Source: an uncultured Allomuricauda sp. (GTDB taxonomy: Bacteria; Bacteroidota; Bacteroidia; Flavobacteriales; Flavobacteriaceae). Taken from it: a stretch of 64,000 bases of DNA. Positions 13,785 through 62,500 of this stretch are shown here, one piece after another. The DNA is taken from positions 1 through 64,000 of the forward strand of contig NZ_CANMOO010000004.1 in NCBI RefSeq assembly GCF_947499585.1, in the 5' to 3' direction. Positions within the stretch are counted from its first letter, which is position 1. The number at the start of each line of letters is the position of its first letter. Below the pieces are notes generated by a model that made no database searches, was not told where the DNA came from, and saw only the letters and a list, made by a program, of their open reading frames with translations. Both the position numbers and the translations under genes were made by a program.

Positions 13785-14516
13785 TTATGGGGAAGTTATT
13801 GGTTGCAGAAGAGTCACATCTGCTGTTCCAGATATGGTTAAATCATTACCACTACTATTATTAAGTGCAACAACTGAAACCGAATATGATAAGGTAAGGA
13901 TTTGGGTAGTGGCGTCATAGGCAATATTGGAAAATTCAAAATCGGCCAATTCAGCATTTAGAAATGGAGTGCTTGAAAATCCGTCATTGATTACAAAATA
14001 CATATTGTCATCTCCTATTACGGAGTAATTGACAATACTTATATAGGCAAACTCTATACTCTGCGTAGGTTGCCCTAAATTCTTAACATTTAGAAATAAC
14101 CCTAGGCCGGTATTTTGATAAAAATCGTCTGGAGCACTAAGAAAGCGAGCCATACCAAATTCATGAAAGGTATCTGATCCCTGTTGAGAAAAACGAACTG
14201 AGTTTGTGGGAAAATCAGGTGGAACAACTTGAAGAAAATTTGCGCCAACCGGGAAAAACTTGAATGAAGTAGAATCTGTAAATGCAAGATCATCTGGTCT
14301 TGTGCCCTCCATCTCCATGGTAACATCTCCAAATTTGGTCAGTTCATCAAAACCCACCCCGTTTTCACCATCTATTCCATTGGTGCCATCAACTCCATTG
14401 ACCCCATTAGTTCCATCTTCTCCATTGATTCCATCTCTTCCATCTTCTCCAGAGCAGGAAGCCATACAAATTGTTAAGGCAACTATTGTCAAGGTTATTA
14501 ATCTAAGTGATTTCAT
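13785..14516 (-). CDS. Lipoprotein with short collagen-like Gly-X-Asp/Asn region
   Basis: A 243-residue protein. The signal peptide ends in a lipobox (ICMASC, Cys20), so it is a lipoprotein. About eleven Gly-X-Y triplets follow (from residue 22, GEDGRDGINGEDGTNG onward), with Asp or Asn at nearly every third position instead of Pro. The remaining 190 residues begin with a segment TKFGDVTMEMEGTRPDDLAF that recurs in the next gene and form a beta-rich domain of unknown function. The neighbour at 14647 is a paralogue, so the pair arose by tandem duplication. Function unknown; a surface or matrix role is possible. Confidence 0.8.
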   Translation of the reverse strand: MKSLRLITLTIVALTICMASCSGEDGRDGINGEDGTNGVNGVDGTNGIDGENGVGFDELTKFGDVTMEMEGTRPDDLAFTDSTSFKFFPVGANFLQVVPPDFPTNSVRFSQQGSDTFHEFGMARFLSAPDDFYQNTGLGLFLNVKNLGQPTQSIEFAYISIVNYSVIGDDNMYFVINDGFSSTPFLNAELADFEFSNIAYDATTQILTLSYSVSVVALNNSSGNDLTISGTADVTLLQPITSP

Positions 14517-14646: not shown

Positions 14647-15492
14647 TTAATTTATCAGTTCCAAAACAAATACATCTACATTACCGGATATGTTGAGTTC
14701 GTTATTAGAATCGTTGTTTGCAGCATCGACGGTAAACGAGTAGGAAAATTGGAGATTATTCGTGACAGTATCAAAAGATATATCTGAAAGCACAAAATCA
14801 GTGACCCCAGCACCATTATTTTCATACTGATCATCCAAAACAAAGTATTTATTATCACTTCCGATAACTGCATAGTTATTTATCTGTAAAGAAGCTTGAT
14901 TAAAGACTAATGGAAGTTGTTCTGGTTTGGTTATGGATAATGAAATATCAGCAAAGGCAATCTGATACACTTCATCAGGTGTACTTAAAAAACGGCGTAA
15001 TTCAAATTGGTATACAATATCATTCCCTTGATTGTTAGATACTACACTGTTGTATGTGTCTATATCATCTCCATCGACAGGGGTATATCTGAAAGACTCA
15101 TTGTTAGCAAAGGCTACATTATCCGGTCTGATTCCTTGTAATTCTACCTCAATAGATCCGAATCTGAGCATATCTTCAAGACCAACCCCGTCAACTCCGT
15201 TTTCCCCGTTGCTTCCGTTTGTTCCATTTTCCCCGTCAACTCCGTTCGCTCCATCAGCACCATCCATTCCCCTACAATCAAAGGCATTGAACTCACCATC
15301 TTGATTCGTATCCTCTTCCTCATCGTTTGTGCCATTACTATTAGTATCCCAACAATTAATACCGGTTGCACCGGTTTCCCCTATGGTACCAGGGTCGCCT
15401 TTAACTCCATCCAACCCATCTTCTGAGGTGCAAGAAGTTAAACAGACTGTTATCATAACTATTGCTGCAGGAAATAGTCGATTTAATTTCAT
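14647..15492 (-). CDS. Collagen-like lipoprotein with EF-hand-like insert (paralogue of the gene at 13785)
   Basis: A 281-residue protein starting at ATG 15492; the frame is open further upstream but only with a TTG and an unlikely leader. The lipobox is VCLTSC. The Gly-X-Y region is split by a Cys-bounded acidic insert (CWDTNSNGTNDEEED, then TNQDGEFNAFDC) with DxNxNGxxD and DxNxDGxFNxxD patterns like EF-hand/dockerin calcium loops. The C-terminal domain has FGSIEVELQGIRPDNVAFAN, homologous to the neighbour at 13785. The two genes share strand and are separated by about 130 bases. Calcium binding is inferred from the loops only. Confidence 0.8.
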   Translation of the reverse strand: MKLNRLFPAAIVMITVCLTSCTSEDGLDGVKGDPGTIGETGATGINCWDTNSNGTNDEEEDTNQDGEFNAFDCRGMDGADGANGVDGENGTNGSNGENGVDGVGLEDMLRFGSIEVELQGIRPDNVAFANNESFRYTPVDGDDIDTYNSVVSNNQGNDIVYQFELRRFLSTPDEVYQIAFADISLSITKPEQLPLVFNQASLQINNYAVIGSDNKYFVLDDQYENNGAGVTDFVLSDISFDTVTNNLQFSYSFTVDAANNDSNNELNISGNVDVFVLELIN

Positions 15493-15846
15493 ATCCTTTA
15501 AAAGTTTTATTAGAATCAAAAAAGTAGTGTATATGCCCCTTTTAACTTGGAGGAAATTGATGCATGCACGATTTTGATTGATGAATGTATGCTTCGCGTA
15601 AATTTTTTTTGACGAGATGAAGGAGAGTTTGAGGAAAAACCACTAATAATCAAATAATTAAAAGAGTCTACCTACTTAAGACAGAAGTGCTTTTATGTAA
15701 TTTACATAAGAATTTTGCTTCACTCCATCTTAAGGACGTTTCACTCACAATCTTAGACACTTCATTTGAATAACTCGCTTTTACTATTGAAGCTAACCTA
15801 GTTTAGGCTCATAATTAAAGGAAATCCCATAAACAACACCAGACGA
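15493..15846. other. Intergenic region with a 17-bp palindrome
   Basis: I see no convincing gene in this 354-base stretch. It holds the upstream region of the collagen-like gene and a perfect palindrome, TTATGTAA-T-TTACATAA, at 15693-15709, which could be an operator. Confidence 0.5.
15693..15709. promoter_or_regulatory. 17-bp perfect palindrome, possible operator
   Basis: TTATGTAA and TTACATAA are exact inverted repeats around a single T. The site lies about 200 bases upstream of the collagen-like lipoprotein gene and 140 bases upstream of a small HTH gene. The regulator is unknown. Confidence 0.35.
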
Positions 15847-50243: not shown

Positions 50244-51212
50244 TTATTTTTTAAAAACGTAATTTTTATACTGTTGTTCAGAATCTGTGAATTCCGTTAC
50301 TATTTTGAGGTCCGCTTTTTCCGCCAACCATTCTACAATAGCATCATCGTATTTTTGAGAAATTTCGGTATGGATGGTTTCCCAAGCTTTAAGACGTATT
50401 TCCAACTCCAAACTTTCAATCCAAACGTTTTGTTCTTCTTTTGATACCAAATAACTTTTGGCCGTTCCGGTCTCTGGATCATAAACCTCCCAATGTGAAA
50501 ACTTGTCCAGATTAAAACTCCCGCCCATTTCTTTATTGATGCGGGCTAGAATGTTTTTGTTGAAAGCTTCGGTAATACCAGTTTTGTCATTATAGGCATC
50601 CAATATGGTCTGTGGGTTTTTTTTCTGGTCAAATCCCATAAAAATTAGGTCCCCATCATTTATGGAATCCTTCATATTTCTTAAGAATTCCAAAGCTTGT
50701 GGATGTAATAGATTACCAATATTGGAACCAAGAAATAGGATTACTTTTTTTCGTTCGTTAGCATCTCCAATATCCCTTAAAGTATCAAAATACGTGCCTT
50801 GTAATGTGTTTATCTCTACTTCTGGAATTTCTTGCCCCAAGGACTCTTCCAATTGATCAAGTGCATTTTGGCTAATGTCTATAGGCCTATAATCAAAAGA
50901 AATATTTTTTTCTGTAAAATGGCGAAGCAAGATTTTAGTCTTTTTTCCATCTCCCGCGCCTAATTCAAACAGACTAAAAGGTTCATCATTTTTTCCAAAA
51001 AGTTCTGCGATTTCGGTCTTGTTTTCTTCAAGAATGTTGAACTCACAATCCGTGAGATAATATTCGGGCATAGCCATAATATCTTGAAATAATTTATCGC
51101 CTATTTCATCATAAAAATATTTGGAAGACAAATGTTTGGGATATGTGGTCAACCCTTCATAAACCTCTTGCTCAAAAGTTGAGGTAAAGGTTGTGACTTC
51201 ATTGTTTTGCAT
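50244..51212 (-). CDS. egtD: L-histidine N-alpha-methyltransferase
   Basis: A 322-residue SAM enzyme that trimethylates histidine to hercynine, the first step of ergothioneine synthesis. Motifs are LSSKYFYDEIGDKLFQDIMA, MPEYYLTDCEFNIL, the SAM site FSLFELGAGDGKKTKILL, VILFLGSNIGNLLHPQALEF and the C-terminal QNVWIESLELEIRLKAWETI. Length is normal for EgtD. It follows egtB by 16 bases. Confidence 0.94.
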   Translation of the reverse strand: MQNNEVTTFTSTFEQEVYEGLTTYPKHLSSKYFYDEIGDKLFQDIMAMPEYYLTDCEFNILEENKTEIAELFGKNDEPFSLFELGAGDGKKTKILLRHFTEKNISFDYRPIDISQNALDQLEESLGQEIPEVEINTLQGTYFDTLRDIGDANERKKVILFLGSNIGNLLHPQALEFLRNMKDSINDGDLIFMGFDQKKNPQTILDAYNDKTGITEAFNKNILARINKEMGGSFNLDKFSHWEVYDPETGTAKSYLVSKEEQNVWIESLELEIRLKAWETIHTEISQKYDDAIVEWLAEKADLKIVTEFTDSEQQYKNYVFKK

Positions 51213-51228
51213 AGTGGTTATGTCGTAA

Positions 51229-52389
51229 TTACTTGGCTAACCTTAAACCGGTAAATTGCCATCTTAATTGGGGGTGAAAAAAATTTCTATAGGTATGTCT
51301 TGTATGCTTTGTGGGTGTTGCTACGGAGCCTCCTCTCAATACTTTTTGGTTAACCATAAACTTGCCGTTGTATTCACCCAATGCACCATCTGCTTTTTGA
51401 TAATTGGGGTAGGGAAGGTAAGCGCTTTCTGTCCACTCCCAACGTTTGCCCCACGGAAAAAATGCTTGTCCGGCTTCCCATTCAAACTCAGTGGGTAACC
51501 TAAGTCCTTTCCATTGTGCATAGGCAAAAGCCTCAAAATAGGAGATATGCGTTAACGAAGCATCCACTTTTACTTTTTGAAGGCCTTGAGCTGTGTAGTT
51601 GTACCAATCTCCATCAATGTTATGCCAATAGAACGGTGCAATAATTTGATTCTGACTCACCCAATCCCATCCTTCGGCATGCCAAATATCAAAACGTTGG
51701 TAGCCTCCTGCTTCAATGAATTCTATGAACTCTCCATTGGTGACCAATTTATTGGAAATTTCATATGAATGTAGGTACACTTTGTGTTTTCCCAATTCAT
51801 TATCGTAGCAAAAATCAGATGAATTATGTCCAATCTCATAAACACCCTCTTCTACAGCAATCCAGTCTTGTCGATGGTTTTCTATTGGATGGTCTTCAAA
51901 TTCTTTGGAATATTCAGGCAAAAGAGGGTTGTTTCCAAGAATATATTTGATGTCTGTCAATAATAATTCTTGATGTTGCTTTTCATGATGGATTCCTATT
52001 TCTAATACCGCATTGATCTCTTCGTTTTGATCAGTTGCTAAAAACTTTTTAATGCCCTCTGTAACATACTTCCTATATTCATAGACTTTTTTCACAGATG
52101 GCCTGGATAAGTTTCCCCTATCTGATCGGACCACTCTTTTTCCTACAGTCTCATAATAACTATTAAAAACAAAAGAAAAATCTTCATCAAATAGGGTGTA
52201 ATCCTTGGCATGGGGCTTCAGAATAAATTCTTCAAAAAACCACGTGGTGTGGCCCAAGTGCCATTTTGGTGGACTTACATCTATTACCGGTTGAACCACG
52301 TAATCTTCAATTTCTAAAGGTTGACAGATATCTTCGGAATGTTTTCTGGTTTCCAAAAAGAAATCCAAAAGGGAATCGGTAAGAATCAT
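51229..52389 (-). CDS. egtB: Ergothioneine biosynthesis sulfoxide synthase EgtB
   Basis: A 386-residue iron enzyme that joins a thiol donor to hercynine. The N-terminal DinB-like domain supplies the iron ligands: likely His47 (KWHLGHTTWFFEEF) with His135 and His139 (GIHHEKQHQELLL). The substrate-binding motif is RSDRGNLSRPSV (residues 88-99). The C-terminal FGE-sulfatase/lectin-like domain ends with RNFFHPQLRWQFTGLRLAK. Whether the thiol is cysteine or gamma-glutamylcysteine is not decidable here; no egtA or egtC is in the window. It lies 36 bases after the histidine kinase gene on the same strand. Confidence 0.93.
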   Translation of the reverse strand: MILTDSLLDFFLETRKHSEDICQPLEIEDYVVQPVIDVSPPKWHLGHTTWFFEEFILKPHAKDYTLFDEDFSFVFNSYYETVGKRVVRSDRGNLSRPSVKKVYEYRKYVTEGIKKFLATDQNEEINAVLEIGIHHEKQHQELLLTDIKYILGNNPLLPEYSKEFEDHPIENHRQDWIAVEEGVYEIGHNSSDFCYDNELGKHKVYLHSYEISNKLVTNGEFIEFIEAGGYQRFDIWHAEGWDWVSQNQIIAPFYWHNIDGDWYNYTAQGLQKVKVDASLTHISYFEAFAYAQWKGLRLPTEFEWEAGQAFFPWGKRWEWTESAYLPYPNYQKADGALGEYNGKFMVNQKVLRGGSVATPTKHTRHTYRNFFHPQLRWQFTGLRLAK

Positions 52390-52425
52390 AAAAATGTTTT
52401 ACACCTTAAAGATAAAAAATAAGGT

Positions 52426-53919
52426 CTAGTTTACCGCATAAACTGGAAGACTAAAACTAAAGGAAGTACCTTCATTTGGTTTACTGAACACCTTAATCTT
52501 ACTATCGTGTATCTCCATTATTTTCTTTACAATAGCGAGGCCTAGACCTGTGCCCTCCTTTTCCTGACCAACTTTGGTCTGTCTGTAACGCTCAAAGATC
52601 AGGGCTTGGTTATCCTTTTTAATTCCTGGACCAGAATCTTGAATTATAACTTCTACATGGTCATTCTCTGCTTCAATTTTTACGGTAACCTCTCCGCCTT
52701 TTGGGGTGAATTTTAACGCATTGTCCATCAAGTTTTGGATAGCTCTTTCTACAAGAGAGATATCAGCAAAAACCAATGGAACACTCTTTGCCATGGACAG
52801 TTTTAAATCAATGTTTTTCTGTTCTGCCAATAAAGAATAATTTCTGTGAATATCATTGGCCAATTCACTAATTAAAAAAGGTTCTTTTTCTGGCTGAATT
52901 TGGTTGGCCTCCAGCTTTGAGTATTCAAAAAGCTGGGAGACCAACTTGGAAAGACGTTCACTACTGCGGGTAACGGTTTTTAGGTATTCGGCCCGTTCCT
53001 CAGCAGAAAGCTCATCGTTTTTCATGTGAAGTGTTTCAATATAGCCTTGTATTATGGATAGTGGTGTTCGCAAATCGTGGGAAATATTGGCAATTAATTC
53101 TTGTCTCAATTGCTCAACGGACTTTATTTTTTCAATATCAGATAAAATGGTATCAGCCATGCTATTATAGGTGCTAGCTACATTGGCCAGATCTGTTTTT
53201 TCAGCATTTTCTATCCGATACTCTAAATCGCCTTGTTGAAACCGCTTGGCGGCATAGATAATCTTCCTTAAGCTTCTGGTGAGGTACCAAATAGCAAGTA
53301 TGCCCAAGAGGGTGGCAAAAACTAACGTTAATACAGACCCGCCAAGGCCCAAACGCATAAAATAACTGTTGAACAAATCGCTTCGGGTAGCTAAAAAATC
53401 CTCTCCAGCAAGAATAATGTATACATAGCCTTCATGGCCATCCTTGTTAAAATGGGCTGCTGAAAAAATGGTTTGTTTGGATAAATCCTTAGGATCATCA
53501 CCTATTGTATAACTACTCCCTTTTTCATTGATGAACCTTTTTATTGGTTCTAGATTCACTTTTTTCTGCTTGGTCTCAGGAGCGTCATGGTCAAGGACAA
53601 CAGAGTACTGTACATTTCCAGAATTATCCAATAGATACACTTCAATGGCGCGGTTCACGGCCATCATATCATGCATGATGTCTCCAAAAAGGGCTTTGTT
53701 TACCGTTCCAGTAGAATCAAAAGGGTGCGTATCCTTAAATTTCTCCTCAATAAGATCTTGAGCAAGATTGGCATGTAAGCGCTGGGTGGTCTCATAAAAA
53801 TATTTGTTAGATAGATATATGGACGTAATGGTGTACCCAATACCTGCAAGCAATAGAATAGCAAGGAATGAGAGGGTGAGTTTTAGGATAAATCTAACGG
53901 AAAGTATATTGTTTTTCAT
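52426..53919 (-). CDS. Membrane sensor histidine kinase
   Basis: A 497-residue sensor. Two membrane helices (about 12-34 and 192-215) flank a periplasmic domain of about 155 residues. HAMP (about 215-265), the phospho-acceptor His in LIANISHDLRTPLSIIQGYI and the ATPase boxes follow (NLMDNALKFTPKGGEV, IIQDSGPGIKKDNQ, GTGLGLAIVKKIM). It is 14 bases after its partner response regulator and 36 bases before egtB, so these genes may share one transcript. Confidence 0.93.
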   Translation of the reverse strand: MKNNILSVRFILKLTLSFLAILLLAGIGYTITSIYLSNKYFYETTQRLHANLAQDLIEEKFKDTHPFDSTGTVNKALFGDIMHDMMAVNRAIEVYLLDNSGNVQYSVVLDHDAPETKQKKVNLEPIKRFINEKGSSYTIGDDPKDLSKQTIFSAAHFNKDGHEGYVYIILAGEDFLATRSDLFNSYFMRLGLGGSVLTLVFATLLGILAIWYLTRSLRKIIYAAKRFQQGDLEYRIENAEKTDLANVASTYNSMADTILSDIEKIKSVEQLRQELIANISHDLRTPLSIIQGYIETLHMKNDELSAEERAEYLKTVTRSSERLSKLVSQLFEYSKLEANQIQPEKEPFLISELANDIHRNYSLLAEQKNIDLKLSMAKSVPLVFADISLVERAIQNLMDNALKFTPKGGEVTVKIEAENDHVEVIIQDSGPGIKKDNQALIFERYRQTKVGQEKEGTGLGLAIVKKIMEIHDSKIKVFSKPNEGTSFSFSLPVYAVN

Positions 53920-53933
53920 CTGTAGCGGTTTGG

Positions 53934-54647
53934 TTAGGCCTCCATAAGTTCTTCATTGAATTTATATCCTACCCCCCATGTGGTCAAAATAAATTTAGGA
54001 TTGCTCATGTCTGGTTCAATTTTAGAGCGTAGACGGTTAATATGGGAATTCACAGTATGCTCATACCCTTTAAAATCATACCCCCAAATCATGTTCAATA
54101 ATTTTGAACGATCATAGCTTTTTCCTGGATTCGAGGATAAAAGCACCAAGAGCTCAAATTCTTTAGGAGAAAGCTCTATTTTTTTACCATCTAAAAGCAC
54201 TTTGCGCATATCAATGTCTATGGATAGCATATCAAATTCCATCAACTTTGGATTTTTCTCTGAAGATGGTTCCACAATATCCATTTTCTGTCTTCTAAAA
54301 ATGGCTTTTACCCGGGCAATAAATTCACGAACGCTAAAGGGCTTGGTTAAATAATCATCAGCGCCCACTTCTAATCCCAATACTTTATCAATTTCCTCAG
54401 AACGAGCGGTAAGCATCATTATGGGGGATTTAATATTATTTGCTCTAATCTTCTGACAGATTTCAATACCGTCCATTTCTGGAAGCATTACATCTAGAAT
54501 AATAAGATCTGGATTTTCGTTGATGGCCTTTCGTAATCCAACATCTCCTCTATCAGCCGTCAAAACTTGACAACCCAAATCTTTAAGATGTATTTCCAAA
54601 AGACGAACGATTTCAATATCGTCTTCAACGATCAGTACTTTTTTCAT
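53934..54647 (-). CDS. OmpR/PhoB family response regulator
   Basis: A 237-residue regulator. The receiver domain has KKVLIVEDD, the phospho-Asp in DLIILDVMLPEMDG and the Lys in ADDYLTKPFSVREF. The C-terminal winged helix has ELSPKEFELLVLLSSNPGKS, YDRSKLLNMIWGYDFKGYEH and TWGVGYKF. ATG 54647 (MKKVLIVEDD) is chosen over an upstream start. It is the first gene of the run continuing into the histidine kinase and egtB. It is divergent from the five-repeat lipoprotein, which it may also control. Confidence 0.94.
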   Translation of the reverse strand: MKKVLIVEDDIEIVRLLEIHLKDLGCQVLTADRGDVGLRKAINENPDLIILDVMLPEMDGIEICQKIRANNIKSPIMMLTARSEEIDKVLGLEVGADDYLTKPFSVREFIARVKAIFRRQKMDIVEPSSEKNPKLMEFDMLSIDIDMRKVLLDGKKIELSPKEFELLVLLSSNPGKSYDRSKLLNMIWGYDFKGYEHTVNSHINRLRSKIEPDMSNPKFILTTWGVGYKFNEELMEA

Positions 54648-54873
54648 GATGCAACGAATTAAAAGGTAAAGTATCACGGAAAGTTCACCGTTTTCTACAA
54701 TTTTTTGATCGGATACTCCTTAAGAAGTCTGTTTTTGGCGCAAATCTTTACAAAAAGACTATGTTTTTATATTAACTATCTGATAATCAAAATGTAATGA
54801 ATTTTGATTTTTATGTGATACTTCTGCAACATCTTCCCCCTTCATTTGTGGAACAATTTAAAAACACACGAAA

Positions 54874-56625
54874 ATGAGCAACTTAAAATCATTATTGATG
54901 CTAATGGGCATTGCAATACTGTTGGTTTCCTGTAAAGGAGATACCGATGATGATAATCCTATTGTACTGGATGCAGGTACACTATCTGGTGGCCCTTTTA
55001 CCTTTACTGTTGATGGAATTCCGGATATGGTAAGCGGAATTACTTTAGATGCCAATGACCTTGTTGGTAGCAACAGAGGTTATGTTATTACAGATGAGTC
55101 TGGAAATATTTTAGGACTTCCACTAACATTGGAAGCTGTAGAAGGCGTAAATTTCGATGAAGCCGGAGCTGGGATATGTCTTATTTGGCATATTGTTTAT
55201 GAAGATGGCCTTCAAGGTTTGGAAGCAGGCTTAAATACAAGTGGCCTAGCTGGCGACTATGACCTTTCTAATTCGTTGACCGTTACCAGAAATGGTTTAA
55301 ATGCGGGAATGCTGTCTGGCGGCCCATACAATTTTGTTGTAGATGGTATACCGGATATGGTGAGCACTGTTGCCTTGGATGATTCAATGCTTACCGGTGA
55401 TGCACAGACCTACGTGATTACGGACGATTCTAAAAATATTTTGGGAATACCTCCGACTTTGGAAGCTGTGATGGGTGTTGACTTTGATGGAGCTGGTGTA
55501 GGATCTTGCTATATCTTTCATTTGACCTATTCAGGAGAATTATCTGGATTGGAAGGTGGACAGAACCTGAACGACCTGTCTGGTAATTTTGCCCTTTCTA
55601 ACTTTGTAGTGGTCAACCGAAACCCATTGAATGCGGGAACTTTATCTGGAGGTCCGTACAACTTTGTTGTAGATGGCACCCCAGATATGGTAAGCGTTAT
55701 TGCCTTGGATGACTCTGGAATTACCGGTGATGCACAAACTTATGTAATCACTGATGATTCTAAAAATATTTTGGGAATTCCTCCAACTTTAGAAGCTGTA
55801 AAAGGAGTCAATTTTGATGCTGCTGGTGTGGGTTCTTGCTACATATTCCATTTAACCTATTCTGGTGAATTGGCCGGATTGGAAGGTGGACAGAACTTAA
55901 ATGACCTGACCGGTAATTTTGCACTTTCCAACTTTGTAACGGTCAACAGAAATGCATTGAATGCTGGCACCCTCTCTGGAGGACCGTATAACTTTGTTGT
56001 GGATGGTACACCGGATATGGTAAGTGCCATTGCTTTGGATGACTTAGAAGTTAACGGGGCCGTACAGACCTATGTGATTACGGACGATTCCAAAAATATT
56101 TTGGGAGTGCCCCCAACTTTGGATGCTGTAAAAGGAGTAGATTTTGATGGAGCAGGCGTAGGTTCTTGTTACATATTCCATTTGACCTACTCTGGTGAAT
56201 TGTCCGGATTGGAAGGTGGACAGAACTTGAACGACCTGTCAGGTAATTTTGCGCTTTCCAACTTTGTAACGGTGAACAGAAATGCATTAAATGCAGGGTA
56301 TATTGGCGGAGGTCCATTTTTATTTAAAGTGGATGGTACTCCAGATATGGTAAGTGGAATTTATTTAGATGACTCCAATTTGACTGGATCAAAACAAGGC
56401 TGGGTGATCACAGATGAATACAATAATATTCTAGGTTTACCACCAACAATTGATGCAGTTGAAGGTGTAGATTTTGATGCTGCGGGTGTTGGAATATGCT
56501 TTATCTGGCATATTACCTATGAGGAAGGACTAACAGGATTGGAAGCTGGAATGAACGTTGCTGACTTGGATGGCTTTTATGACCTTTCTAACTCCATAAA
56601 AGTGGCTAGGGAACTTCCACATTAA
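54874..56625 (+). CDS. Lipoprotein made of five tandem 110-residue repeats
   Basis: A 583-residue protein with a lipobox (LLVSCKGD, Cys20) and a short Asp-rich linker. Five repeats of exactly 110 residues follow without any insertion or deletion, from residue 32 to 581. Each repeat has the order GGP(F/Y)xFxVDGxPDMV, then YVITDxxxNILGxPPT, VDFDxAGVGxC and a final DLSxxFxLSN. Each carries one Cys in the AGVGxC motif. Repeats 2-4 are nearly identical (CYIFHLTYSGEL), while 1 and 5 share IWHI-Y-GL-GLEAG and act as caps. From memory, similar modules occur in large Bacteroidota surface proteins; I know no function. It is divergent from a response regulator gene. Confidence 0.88.
   Translation: MSNLKSLLMLMGIAILLVSCKGDTDDDNPIVLDAGTLSGGPFTFTVDGIPDMVSGITLDANDLVGSNRGYVITDESGNILGLPLTLEAVEGVNFDEAGAGICLIWHIVYEDGLQGLEAGLNTSGLAGDYDLSNSLTVTRNGLNAGMLSGGPYNFVVDGIPDMVSTVALDDSMLTGDAQTYVITDDSKNILGIPPTLEAVMGVDFDGAGVGSCYIFHLTYSGELSGLEGGQNLNDLSGNFALSNFVVVNRNPLNAGTLSGGPYNFVVDGTPDMVSVIALDDSGITGDAQTYVITDDSKNILGIPPTLEAVKGVNFDAAGVGSCYIFHLTYSGELAGLEGGQNLNDLTGNFALSNFVTVNRNALNAGTLSGGPYNFVVDGTPDMVSAIALDDLEVNGAVQTYVITDDSKNILGVPPTLDAVKGVDFDGAGVGSCYIFHLTYSGELSGLEGGQNLNDLSGNFALSNFVTVNRNALNAGYIGGGPFLFKVDGTPDMVSGIYLDDSNLTGSKQGWVITDEYNNILGLPPTIDAVEGVDFDAAGVGICFIWHITYEEGLTGLEAGMNVADLDGFYDLSNSIKVARELPH
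54967..55296 (+). repeat. 330-bp repeat 1 (N-terminal cap type)
   Basis: First unit, beginning at the LDAGTLSGGPF codons. It resembles unit 5 in the IWHIVYEDGL and GLEAG segments more than the inner units. Confidence 0.88.
55297..55626 (+). repeat. 330-bp repeat 2
   Basis: Inner unit beginning LNAGMLSGGPY; close in DNA sequence to units 3 and 4. Confidence 0.9.
55627..55956 (+). repeat. 330-bp repeat 3
   Basis: Inner unit beginning LNAGTLSGGPY; same length as the neighbours. Confidence 0.9.
55957..56286 (+). repeat. 330-bp repeat 4
   Basis: Inner unit; differs from unit 3 mainly in the DLEVNGAV segment. Confidence 0.9.
56287..56616 (+). repeat. 330-bp repeat 5 (C-terminal cap type)
   Basis: Last unit beginning LNAGYIGGGPF; ends three codons before the stop (KVARELPH tail). 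Confidence 0.88.
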
Positions 56626-58922: not shown

Positions 58923-60587
58923 TTAGTGTTTCGGTTTTTTTAATTCTGACTCACTGATATTTGAGTTGGTGTTTTTGGTCATGTCCAAATATTTTTGCTG
59001 CAACTCATCTGAATCTCCGTATTTGACCCTTAGTTTAGCTAGTCTTTTTTTTAGTTCCACAACCACATCTTTATATTCAGGATCTCCGTAAACATTCTTC
59101 ATTTCATGCACGTCTTTTTTGCGATCGTATAATTCCCATTCATCTATATCGTAATAAAAGTGTGCTAACTTATAATCCTTAGTAACGATGCCATAGTGCC
59201 TTTTTACGGAGTGCCACCCGGGATATTCATAATAGTGGTAATAAACAGCCTCACGATTCCACCCCTGAGAGTCTCCTTTTAAAAGGGGCATTAAAGATTC
59301 ACCCTGCATGTCAGCTGGTGCTTTTACTTGGGCAGCTTCCAAAAACGTTTGGGCAAAATCCAAGTTTTGCACCATTTCTTCATTGGTGATACCAGCTTTG
59401 ATTTGGTTAGGCCACCTAATCAACAATGGTGTTTTAAAAGATTCATCATAAATAAAACGTTTATCGAACCATCCGTGTTCACCAAGATAAAAGCCCTGAT
59501 CGGAGGTGTAAACGACCATAGTATTGTTAGTCAAATCATTTTCATCAAGGTAGTTCAAAACCCGACCTACATTATCATCTACAGATGATATACACGCCAA
59601 ATAATCCTGCATGTATCGTTGGTATTTCCAACTCATTTTCTCCTTATTGGTCATCCCTTTCCAATTGGCTTTGAAATCGGCATTGATGGCATCCAATAGA
59701 GGGTCGTATAGGGCTTTTTGTTCTTTTGTCATTCTATTACGAGATTGTTTTAGCGCATATTCCCCGTTAAATATAATTGGTGGAATAACCGGCTCAACAA
59801 CCCCCATCTCTTCGATGGTCTCAGGCATAATTTTAGAATCCTGTGTATAGTCCATATGATAAAGTAGATTCATTTCCGCTGTTTTAGCGGCAGTGCCTCT
59901 GTTTGTGTAATCATCAAAAAGCGTTTCTGGTTCAGGGAAGGATTTCTTAGAAAACTCCTTCATTTTTTCAGCACTTGGCCACCAAGCCCTGTGGGGTGCT
60001 TTGTGCATGTACATCAACATAAAGGGCTTGGTTGCATCTCGTTTTTTATCCAACCATTCCAAAGTAATATCGGTGATAATATCGGTCACATATCCAATTA
60101 TGGTAGTGTCGCCTTTCTGAGTAATAAATTCTGGGTTGATGTAACTTCCTTGCCCTGGTAAAATCATAAAGTCATCAACTCCTTTAGGATTATTTCCAAA
60201 ATGTAGTTTGCCAAACATCGCTGTTTGGTAACCTGCCTTTTGAAACAACTGTGGGAAAGTAATTTGGGTAGTGTCAAATGGCATGATGTTATTGATTTTG
60301 CCATTGAGGTGGGTATGTTTTCCCGTTAGTATAGTGGCACGTGAAGGTGCACAAATAGAATTGGTCACACTTGCATTTGTAAAGAGCATCCCTTCTTTTG
60401 CGAGACGGTCAATATTTGGTGTTTGTATGAGTTGGTCAGAATAGGCACTGATGGCCTGATAGGCATGGTCATCTGACATGATGAACAGAATATTTGGGGG
60501 GACTGTTGGCTCTTGTTCATTCCCTTTACAGGATAACAGAATAGACATTACAATCAGGACAAGAAAATATGTAAATGTTCGATACAT
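58923..60587 (-). CDS. Sulfatase (S1 family) lipoprotein
   Basis: A 554-residue sulfatase. The signal peptide ends in a lipobox (ILLSCKGN, Cys20). The formylglycine motif is C-A-P-S-R in TNSICAPSRATILTGKHTHL. Metal ligands are in NILFIMSDDHAY and VVYTSDQGFYLGEHGWFDKR. The family removes sulfate esters, mostly from algal or host polysaccharides in marine Bacteroidota. No SusC/SusD pair or sulfatase-maturing enzyme is in the window. A second sulfatase lies upstream, about 150 bases away on the same strand. Confidence 0.93.
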   Translation of the reverse strand: MYRTFTYFLVLIVMSILLSCKGNEQEPTVPPNILFIMSDDHAYQAISAYSDQLIQTPNIDRLAKEGMLFTNASVTNSICAPSRATILTGKHTHLNGKINNIMPFDTTQITFPQLFQKAGYQTAMFGKLHFGNNPKGVDDFMILPGQGSYINPEFITQKGDTTIIGYVTDIITDITLEWLDKKRDATKPFMLMYMHKAPHRAWWPSAEKMKEFSKKSFPEPETLFDDYTNRGTAAKTAEMNLLYHMDYTQDSKIMPETIEEMGVVEPVIPPIIFNGEYALKQSRNRMTKEQKALYDPLLDAINADFKANWKGMTNKEKMSWKYQRYMQDYLACISSVDDNVGRVLNYLDENDLTNNTMVVYTSDQGFYLGEHGWFDKRFIYDESFKTPLLIRWPNQIKAGITNEEMVQNLDFAQTFLEAAQVKAPADMQGESLMPLLKGDSQGWNREAVYYHYYEYPGWHSVKRHYGIVTKDYKLAHFYYDIDEWELYDRKKDVHEMKNVYGDPEYKDVVVELKKRLAKLRVKYGDSDELQQKYLDMTKNTNSNISESELKKPKH

Positions 60588-60733: not shown

Positions 60734-62500
60734 TTAATCTATCTTTTTCATTTCAATCCAAAATGGGAATATTCTTTTTGAGTTGATAGCATAGAAGGGT
60801 ATCAAGTCGCAGTCCATTTTAGGAAAGAAGACGTTCTTCATCTCAATAATGTCAGTATCCTCTTTTTTGTTTACCATTTGTTTGACCAAGGTATTGGCTT
60901 CTATATACATCCTGCCATTTGCTTTAACGGGCTTAATGAACTTAATTTTTATGTTATAATGCCCTTTTTCCATGCTGACCCTCCACTTGCCATATATTTC
61001 TTCTTGATCCCAAATTCCGCGTTGTCCACCAGCATCGTTCCTATTCAGAATTGTGGGTTTTTCCTGTTCGCTTCCAACAATAATACGGGGTTGATTAATT
61101 AGATTTTCGGAAGTTATCAATTCATTATAGATTCCATCAAGTTCTGCTTTTAGCTCTTTTGCCAGATTTTTATTTTCCGATATAATATTATTTTGTTCGT
61201 AAGGATCTTTTACAAGGTTGAACAGTTCAAAGTCCTTGGTTGGAGCATTATAATTTGTCTTTCCGACCAGTTTATAATTTCCCTTTTGTAACGCCATATT
61301 AAAATAAGGTTCTGGAAAACGTCTTGTCCAATAAAAAAACAATGGTCGGTTTACCCAATCAATGTCTTTGTTCATAATTAATGGCAGCAGACTTTTACCG
61401 TCAATTGTTCTTTCTTTGGGTAAATCAACATTGCAAACCTGCGCTATTGTTGGTAAAACATCAATATGGGAAGTCATGGTTTCAATATCAATATCCTTCT
61501 CAAAAGATGAAGGATATTTAACATAAAATGGTACCCGGACCCCACCTTGGTAAACACTTCCTTTGCGACCACGCATACCACCCACATATCTGGTTTGTTG
61601 CGGGCCATTGTCAGTCATAAAAATAATGAGGGTATTATCCGAAATATCTAAATCATCCAGTTTTTTAAAGAGTTTGTCCAAATTGTCATCAATGTTTGAT
61701 ACCATGGCATACACTTTTCGGGCATCCTCTTTATCTTTTTCTGTCATTTTTGAAAAGGGCCTGCTATCATCCTCAAAGTTAGATGCCGGGTCAATGTCCT
61801 TATATTTTTGATAATAATTTTCCGGCACTTGTAAAGGTGTGTGTGGAGCATTAAAAGAGAGATAACAGAAAAAGGGCGAATCTTTATTTTTTTCTACAAA
61901 CGCTATGGCTTCTTCTGTAAAAATATCCGAGCAATAACCGTTATAGGCTTCTTTATTGTTATTGTGCCACAGTACGGGATCAAAATAACTCTTATCACCT
62001 TTAAAATACGTTGTGATATCACCAACTTGTCCCATTCCACCAGAAAGATGGATCAAGGATTCATCAAAACCTTGATCATTTGGTCTACTTGGGTAATTAT
62101 CACCCAAATGCCATTTGCCAAAAACCCCTGTTTTGTAACCTTCTTGTTTTAGCATTTCGGCAATGGTAACCTCGCTTGATGCCATTATTGCACCGCCATT
62201 GTAGGTATCCCTTATACCTGTGCGCAAGGAATAGCGCCCTGTCAAAAGACTTGAACGGGTTGGGGCGCATACCGGGGAGACATAAAAGTTGTTGAAACGA
62301 ACACTTTCGGTAGCAAATTTATCTATCACCGGGGTTTGTACATGTGGGTTTCCTGTAATACCAAGGTCACCATAGCCCTGATCATCAGTCATGATTAGTA
62401 TAACGTTCGGATGTAGTTTTTCCTGAGCGAAAGCTTTAACGGAACACAATGACAAACAAGAGCATATCAGTACAAAGATGTTTCCAATTTTTAATTTCAT
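60734..62500 (-). CDS. Arylsulfatase-type sulfatase (S1 family)
   Basis: A 588-residue sulfatase with a cleavable signal peptide (about 1-25, ending AFAQ) and not a lipobox at the cleavage site. The formylglycine motif is C-A-P-T-R in SPVCAPTRSSLLTGRYSLRT. Metal ligands are in NVILIMTDDQGYGDLG and LIIFMTDNGPQQTR. A C-terminal region (about 470-588) with beta-strand character is probably the small domain. It belongs to a different subgroup from the downstream sulfatase, so the two may act on different linkages of one polysaccharide; that is inference. Confidence 0.93.
   Translation of the reverse strand: MKLKIGNIFVLICSCLSLCSVKAFAQEKLHPNVILIMTDDQGYGDLGITGNPHVQTPVIDKFATESVRFNNFYVSPVCAPTRSSLLTGRYSLRTGIRDTYNGGAIMASSEVTIAEMLKQEGYKTGVFGKWHLGDNYPSRPNDQGFDESLIHLSGGMGQVGDITTYFKGDKSYFDPVLWHNNNKEAYNGYCSDIFTEEAIAFVEKNKDSPFFCYLSFNAPHTPLQVPENYYQKYKDIDPASNFEDDSRPFSKMTEKDKEDARKVYAMVSNIDDNLDKLFKKLDDLDISDNTLIIFMTDNGPQQTRYVGGMRGRKGSVYQGGVRVPFYVKYPSSFEKDIDIETMTSHIDVLPTIAQVCNVDLPKERTIDGKSLLPLIMNKDIDWVNRPLFFYWTRRFPEPYFNMALQKGNYKLVGKTNYNAPTKDFELFNLVKDPYEQNNIISENKNLAKELKAELDGIYNELITSENLINQPRIIVGSEQEKPTILNRNDAGGQRGIWDQEEIYGKWRVSMEKGHYNIKIKFIKPVKANGRMYIEANTLVKQMVNKKEDTDIIEMKNVFFPKMDCDLIPFYAINSKRIFPFWIEMKKID

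Follow-up and report, generated by a model that had tools for sequence, protein, structure and literature searches.

The window (the whole stretch of 64,000 nucleotides that was analysed, from an uncultured Allomuricauda sp.) encodes a lipoprotein built of five tandem units, which we explain with moderate confidence as an inducible, acidic rod of surface beads and as one output of a small two-component envelope regulon. According to this explanation, a lipid anchor and a short acidic linker would carry a row of five immunoglobulin (Ig)-like beta-sandwich beads on the cell surface; the two end beads would be specialised, and the core beads would be exchangeable and set the length of the rod. 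The regulator would bind a direct-repeat box that precedes its own operon, the lipoprotein gene, and an ECF sigma gene, so that envelope stress would induce the rod together with the sigma factor and the kinase. The role of the rod would be mechanical, that of a spacer, coat, or adhesive stalk. For an unnamed Flavobacteriaceae family, this supplies a predicted fold and a rule of architecture, along with a likely regulator and a candidate operator. Judged from sequence, what appears to be new here is the link to the regulator and kinase with their shared box, together with a cysteine rule that predicts disulfides at the bead joints. Coordinates of the features are provided in Table 1.

Table 1. 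Location of the repeat lipoprotein gene, its units, the conserved boxes, and the adjoining genes in the window
Feature	Position	Strand	Basis and remarks
Repeat lipoprotein gene, 583 aa	54874..56625	+	Signal peptide MSNLKSLLMLMGIAILLVSC, lipid Cys20, then acidic KGDTDDD
Unit 1, first type	54952..55281	+	Unit alignment, cross-species unit similarity
Unit 2, core	55282..55611	+	Unit alignment
Unit 3, core	55612..55941	+	Unit alignment
Unit 4, core	55942..56271	+	Unit alignment
Unit 5, last type	56272..56601	+	Unit alignment, cross-species unit similarity
Conserved box GTGATACTTCTGCAACA, 42 bp before lipoprotein ATG	54815..54831	+	Intergenic alignment
Box of same kind GTGAACTTTCCGTGATA, 24 bp before likely regulator ATG (54647)	54672..54688	-	Intergenic alignment
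OmpR-family response regulator (Response_reg and Trans_reg_C)	53934..54677	-	Pfam; likely ATG 54647
Sensor kinase (HAMP/HisKA/HATPase)	52426..53919	-	Pfam
egtB, ergothioneine synthase, perhaps third gene of the regulator operon	51229..52389	-	TIGR03440, 535 vs 360 bits
egtD-like histidine methyltransferase, perhaps fourth operon gene	50244..51212	-	Just under NCBIfam cut-off, 285.9 vs 290.9

The repeat region (54952-56601) consists of five in-register units of 330 nucleotides (110 codons each, zero indels), as stated in the preliminary description, and the 330-bp period was scored at 1328 by TRF. Seven residues trail unit 5. When unit 2 was used as the query, all four other units were matched (E ≤ 8.7e-33), so the repeat is not due to chance. 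Invariant residues occupy 52 of the 110 columns across the five units, and each unit contains the single conserved Cys that had been reported for it. The core units (2-4) share 85-87% pairwise amino acid identity and 79-83% nucleotide identity; the outer units (1 and 5) are 65% identical to one another and 55-62% identical to the core units at the amino acid level, so their reported resemblance was borne out. The inner units had also been called nearly identical, which is too strong for these values, above all at the nucleotide level. Between 48 and 56 codons differ in each pair of core units, 34-40 of them synonymously. Given this nucleotide identity and the mostly synonymous codon differences, the core units are regarded as old copies kept alike as protein, with the sequence of the unit probably held by selection. 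A recent or slipping duplication in the window array was excluded by the 17-21% of bases that separate the core units, for the most part through synonymous changes. No second copy of the gene is present in its own genome (the sole other match was at chance level, E 0.55), and its product is acidic (pI 4.05). A mobile-element protein was likewise excluded by zero matches in plasmids or phages at E ≤ 1e-5.

The window protein begins with a signal peptide and a lipobox (LVSC, Cys20), which class it as a predicted bacterial lipoprotein. All but three of the 77 relatives matched the lipobox pattern (74 of 77); the sequences of L081 and L106 begin within the gene, and L104 is without a lipobox. All 74 lipobox relatives have three to six acidic residues in the seven positions after the lipid Cys, and in 60 of them the Cys is followed by S, K, Q, N, D, or G and then by at least two acidic residues. 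These starts resemble the surface-export signals of Bacteroidota, which place polar or acidic residues directly after the Cys, SDDDD and SDDFE being among the examples (PMC5080379). The window's KGDTDDD is a loose match to such published signals, and the repeat protein is probably an outer-membrane, surface-exposed protein.

The structure of a single 112-residue unit was predicted with AlphaFold2 from an alignment of 48 units. The resulting model (pLDDT 95.5, pTM 0.88) is almost all beta, with strands and one short helix, and places the unit among Ig-like beta-sandwiches, which are self-contained folds of two sheets and about 100 residues. The whole array was modelled as five confident beads (pLDDT 88.5) whose relative placement is uncertain (pTM 0.58). 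The units of a solenoid repeat do not fold individually; by stacking they form a single continuous core. Since a lone unit was modelled confidently as a beta-sandwich, the protein is predicted to be a string of beads and not a solenoid, the latter being excluded by the same unit model together with the uncertain placement between units. The preliminary description had offered either a capped solenoid or a bead array and had called for structure prediction of both the unit and the array; of its two options, the bead array stood and the solenoid fell.

Searches of Pfam, NCBIfam, and PDB sequences with the window protein returned nothing above cut-off, and a profile search of the PDB gave a best E of 0.54. 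The repeat protein appears to belong to a so far unnamed family (no Pfam or NCBIfam score above a curated cut-off). Searches of open-access papers returned nothing that was recognised, from titles and the starts of abstracts, as a description of it. A Foldseek search of the PDB with the single unit found no confident match (best E 0.33), and a viral fold library gave a best E of 0.066. With VIA-align, single-unit matches reached Z ≤ 7.3, a level that the tool calls common; the top Z belonged to chitinase A (residues 18-124, which we take to be its Ig-like N-terminal domain), many neighbours were Ig-like domains, and the distant ones included domains of chitinase A and GbpA. Fold matches of the array were found to a cadherin ectodomain, the Sap S-layer, and contactin 2 (E 1.8e-9 to 8.7e-7), with TM-scores by query length of at most 0.20 among the 50 matches listed. 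Cadherin, contactin, and Sap rods are likewise strings of beta-sandwich domains with short linkers, but the window protein has no PDB sequence match to them and the matches of its unit are weak (Foldseek E ≥ 0.33, Z ≤ 7.3). Cadherin-like rods are defined by sequence membership and by linkers that bind calcium; the comparison with them here is one of fold-search likeness of the array only, and the likeness to beta-sandwich rods is one of kind, not descent.

In order to obtain relatives, a unit profile was searched against named genomes, where 161 encoding stretches were matched, and the best 80 of these 161 were resolved into 77 loci. These were mostly from Flagellimonas/Allomuricauda, Croceitalea, Croceivirga, Maribacter, Aquimarina, and Psychroserpens; three were titled Cyclobacteriaceae or Flammeovirgaceae. 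In an even draw of the phylum, repeat matches were found in 8 of 395 genomes (own genome included), two of them with 13-unit proteins, and a second remote-profile search returned the same 8 of 395. Among the 72 ORFs uncut by contig ends, the number of units per protein was 1 (4 proteins), 2 (3), 3 (8), 4 (21), 5 (22), 6 (11), 7 (2), or 8 (1), so that five units are not a constant of the family, and the constancy that had been named earlier as a refutation does not hold. The start-to-start spacing of profile matches in the 77 relatives ranged from 104 to 115 aa, with 110 the commonest value (86 of 249), and the exact 110-codon length is therefore local.

Unit similarity was compared across 27 selected proteins (135 units). 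Of the 27 first units, 26 had a first unit from a different species as their nearest other unit, and 22 of the 27 last units were likewise nearest to a last unit from a different species. For core units, the nearest unit of another species was a core unit in 79 of 81 cases, and 25 of 81 were nearest to a unit of their own protein. This pattern supports a capped array with core turnover, as judged from unit sequences, and agrees with the cap and core types first proposed. As for the proposal that the array grows by copying core units, the turnover across relatives speaks for it and the 79-83% nucleotide identity in the window speaks against recent copying there.

Some short arrays run into spondin or RskA_C domains. 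Among the spondin/RskA_C lipoproteins of Bacteroidota (PF06468, PF10099; NF038123), L041, L047, and L090 carry one to three of the same units ahead of these domains and lie beside the same kinase/regulator pair as the window protein; the window protein, in contrast, has neither domain, and beads make up approximately its whole mature length. Many-unit proteins of the T9SS type (the 13-unit L163 and L164, and L104 from Zobellia) share with it the motifs WVITD..LNILGLP, GAG.G.C.IW, and LSN as well as tandem arrays. A T9SS sorting tail was found in L163 and L104 (the two scanned) in place of the lipid anchor.

The conserved bead cysteine (Cys b) was present in 325 of 326 units from the 77 proteins, the exception being a unit cut by a contig end. 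Extra cysteines occurred in 20 proteins, at position a in 37 units (19 proteins) and at position c in 40 units. An a-unit stood directly before a c-unit in 37 of 37 cases, three c-units (in L073, L074, and L080) were without a preceding a-unit, and a and c were never found together in one unit (0 of 326). When c was shuffled within proteins, the mean number of such pairs was 18 and 37 was never reached in 2000 trials; because the proteins are related, the pairs are not 37 independent events. By the strand order of the unit model (DSSP), a falls at the end of an early strand and c at the beginning of the final one, positions that would lie at opposite ends of a bead and so come together at a joint. 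Disulfides between a of one unit and c of the next are therefore predicted to staple the bead joints where a and c are present. A disulfide between a and c within one unit was disfavoured in the lipoprotein relatives, in which the two never share a unit and lie at opposite ends by DSSP order.

The two 13-unit proteins (L163 and L164) differ from the window protein in having three cysteines in each of units 2-13. In their unit 1, a and b are present and c is missing; each of units 2-13 has the full set, and a single Cys lies behind unit 13. Cys a in unit 2 stands as ICIDG. The cysteine numbers close if each a pairs with the c of the next unit and the last a pairs with the tail Cys. Since a and c occur together in units 2-13 here, it is the absence of c from unit 1 and the additional Cys in the tail that carry the case for inter-unit pairing in these proteins. 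This three-cysteine pattern would predict disulfides that link the domains in a daisy chain. The beads of the window protein contain Cys b alone and would lack staples. If the staple prediction is true, the cysteine pattern alone would be a simple sequence code for rod stiffening.

The lipoprotein gene was confirmed to be divergent from a response regulator, as first described. No Pfam model matched the N-terminal input region of the adjoining kinase at E ≤ 0.01, and no curated cut-off was reached by kinase or regulator among the best 25 NCBIfam matches of each. The kinase/regulator pair was found in 51 of the 77 loci, with L064 the only one in which it is not encoded on the opposite strand from the lipoprotein, and this adjacency spans from Flavobacteriaceae to loci titled Cyclobacteriaceae (L090 and L113). 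Of 36 genomes of the genus, 17 have the repeat protein; a kinase orthologue was found in these 17 and in G026, which leaves 18 with neither. In G026 (88% complete), where the kinase is present and the repeat protein is missing, neither the regulator nor the ECF sigma gene has a box. Separately, L175 and Zobellia (L104, L181) have the regulator divergent from a repeat protein that lacks a lipobox, the repeat protein of L175 being known by the start of its first unit only.

The 26 loci without the pair comprise three cut by contig ends (L051, L081, L106), 11 beside a Crp/Fnr-type regulator, L072 (unplaced), and 11 with neither neighbour. In this last set the kinase was found elsewhere in the genome in 9 of 9 searched (L085 was left out), and in L101 the pair adjoins a second repeat copy (L077). 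The kinase was absent (E ≤ 1e-60) from 11 of 11 other genomes searched, namely 10 of the Crp/Fnr group (L103 was left out) and that of L072. As kinase-free relatives adjoin a Crp/Fnr-type regulator, this kinase is not needed for the repeat family. The Crp/Fnr group constitutes a second repeat-lipoprotein lineage (L066, L073, L074, L078, L080, L084, L087, L098, L103, L109, L111), its regulator label coming from one member identified by Pfam. A thioredoxin-like gene lies downstream in 10 of these 11 loci, and the one member scanned was ResA-like, below cut-off.

Both boxes of the window were conserved in an alignment of 35 intergenic regions. Each is 17 bp long, with halves that start 11 bp apart; an 11-bp direct repeat is typical of OmpR/PhoB-type regulators. 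A joint pattern drawn from the window's own two sites matched exactly at these two sites only in the 3.77-Mb genome. With up to two mismatches, 112 matches were found in the genome against 143 for a reversed-pattern control, and thus there is no sign of a wider regulon. Eight one-mismatch boxes were listed for the genome; seven of them are within ORFs, and the eighth precedes an ECF sigma gene. A scan for sigma-70 promoters and terminators found fewer sites than in shuffled sequence and nothing useful.

Boxes were counted within 330 bp before the lipoprotein at ≤ 2 mismatches, leaving out L104, which has no lipobox. Where the pair is adjacent, a box was present in 50 of 50 loci (base-shuffled, 27 of 2500), and in 46 of these 50 it lies on the gene's strand within 120 bp. 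Where the pair is elsewhere or beside a second copy, the count was 8 of 11 (base-shuffled, 8 of 550), and in the group without the pair it was 0 of 12 (base-shuffled, 3 of 600). A one-mismatch box was also found before the regulator at five of nine fetched loci with an unlinked pair (L173, L174, L177, L179, L180). The pattern derives from the window's two sites and most loci are related, so these counts are not independent events. The conserved direct-repeat candidate operator places the lipoprotein gene in a putative OmpR-family regulon, and its predicted regulation by the divergent regulator is well supported by the sequence comparisons. An OmpR-type regulator and a 17-bp direct-repeat box are shared with OmpR/PhoB-type two-component regulons, but few targets are visible here (the regulator itself, the lipoprotein, and the ECF sigma gene). 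Counterpoints to the circuit are the box missing before the lipoprotein at 3 of 11 unlinked-pair loci, the one-mismatch box missing at 4 of 9 unlinked regulators, and the box missing before the sigma gene in 8 of 17 kinase-positive genomes of other genera.

The ECF sigma gene (TIGR02943-like, below cut-off) follows the only one of these eight one-mismatch boxes outside ORFs of at least 80 aa, and it was found in 34 of 36 genomes of the genus. From 30 loci fetched within the genus, a box (≤ 2 mismatches) was present 91-97 bp before the gene in 15 of the 16 genomes with the kinase and in none of the 14 without it, the sole kinase-positive exception being G026. In other genera, a box within 200 bp at the same mismatch limit was found in 9 of 17 kinase-positive and 0 of 10 kinase-negative genomes, at varying distances; the kinase-positive genome of L090 has no such ECF sigma gene. 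Common descent partly explains these counts. Within the genus and beyond it, the genomes that lack the kinase also lack this box. Behind the sigma gene lies a small Cys-bearing ORF that is anti-sigma-like below the NCBIfam cut-off (40.6 vs 50 bits). In G026, a one-mismatch box was also observed approximately 50 bp before a small DM13 lipoprotein with a similar acidic start (L162, 2172-2672, minus strand).

In 40 of 51 loci, egtB and egtD lie behind the kinase on its strand, separated by small gaps. In the window, the genes from the regulator and kinase to egtB and egtD (50244-54677, minus strand) may be co-transcribed as a four-gene operon, an order that would link the two-component system to ergothioneine synthesis. 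The idea that ergothioneine is part of the core system was weakened, as egtB was found without the kinase and the kinase without egtB.

Three other explanations were weighed against the surface rod. The near-perfect co-occurrence with one kinase in the genus, and an adjacency kept as far as the loci titled Cyclobacteriaceae, would be expected if the lipoprotein were not only an output but also a sensing partner that reports surface strain, a ligand, or redox state to the divergent kinase. We consider this unlikely: the kinase persists in G026 without the lipoprotein, the repeat protein occurs without this kinase in all 11 genomes searched from the other group, and an outward-facing protein could reach an inner-membrane kinase only through a relay. 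A redox or thiol-stress protein, which would belong to a thiol regulon and use the invariant bead Cys to react with oxidants or metals at the surface, would account for the near-universal Cys b and would fit the egtB and egtD genes behind the kinase, the Cys-bearing anti-sigma-like ORF, the thioredoxin-like gene of the Crp/Fnr-group loci, and the box before the DM13 lipoprotein. All of these gene links rest on neighbourhood, however, and egtB occurs in kinase-free genomes and is missing from some kinase-bearing ones. Cys b itself lies in a long strand (70-84), two residues ahead of a nearly invariant Ile, where a buried core residue would be expected, and this explanation is also held to be improbable.

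Even less credence is given to a ligand-binding surface protein for glycan or metal capture, with the conserved Asp motifs forming one site per bead. Asp residues do occupy alignment columns 20, 24, 48, and 69 in at least 97% of the 326 units, the protein is acidic, and the distant fold neighbours include the chitinase A and GbpA domains; those matches, however, fall in the Z range that the tool calls common, and none of six Pfam-scanned window neighbours is a SusC/SusD protein or a transporter. For the favoured reading, a surface rod under two-component control, a broader form was entertained tentatively and is held to be a possibility short of even chances: a surface armour whose length is tuned by gain and loss of core beads, whose joints are stapled by disulfides in some lineages, and which is run across families by a dedicated envelope-stress circuit of one sensor kinase.

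Other genes of the window were observed in passing. An ORF at 60734-62500 (minus strand) is sulfatase-like by Pfam, and one at 58923-60587 (minus strand) is presumably sulfatase-like from the look of its sequence; both lie near the repeat lipoprotein. Two neighbouring and similar lipoprotein-like ORFs at 13785-14516 and 14647-15519 (both minus strand) contain short collagen-like Gly-X-Y stretches and 27-bp tandem repeats.
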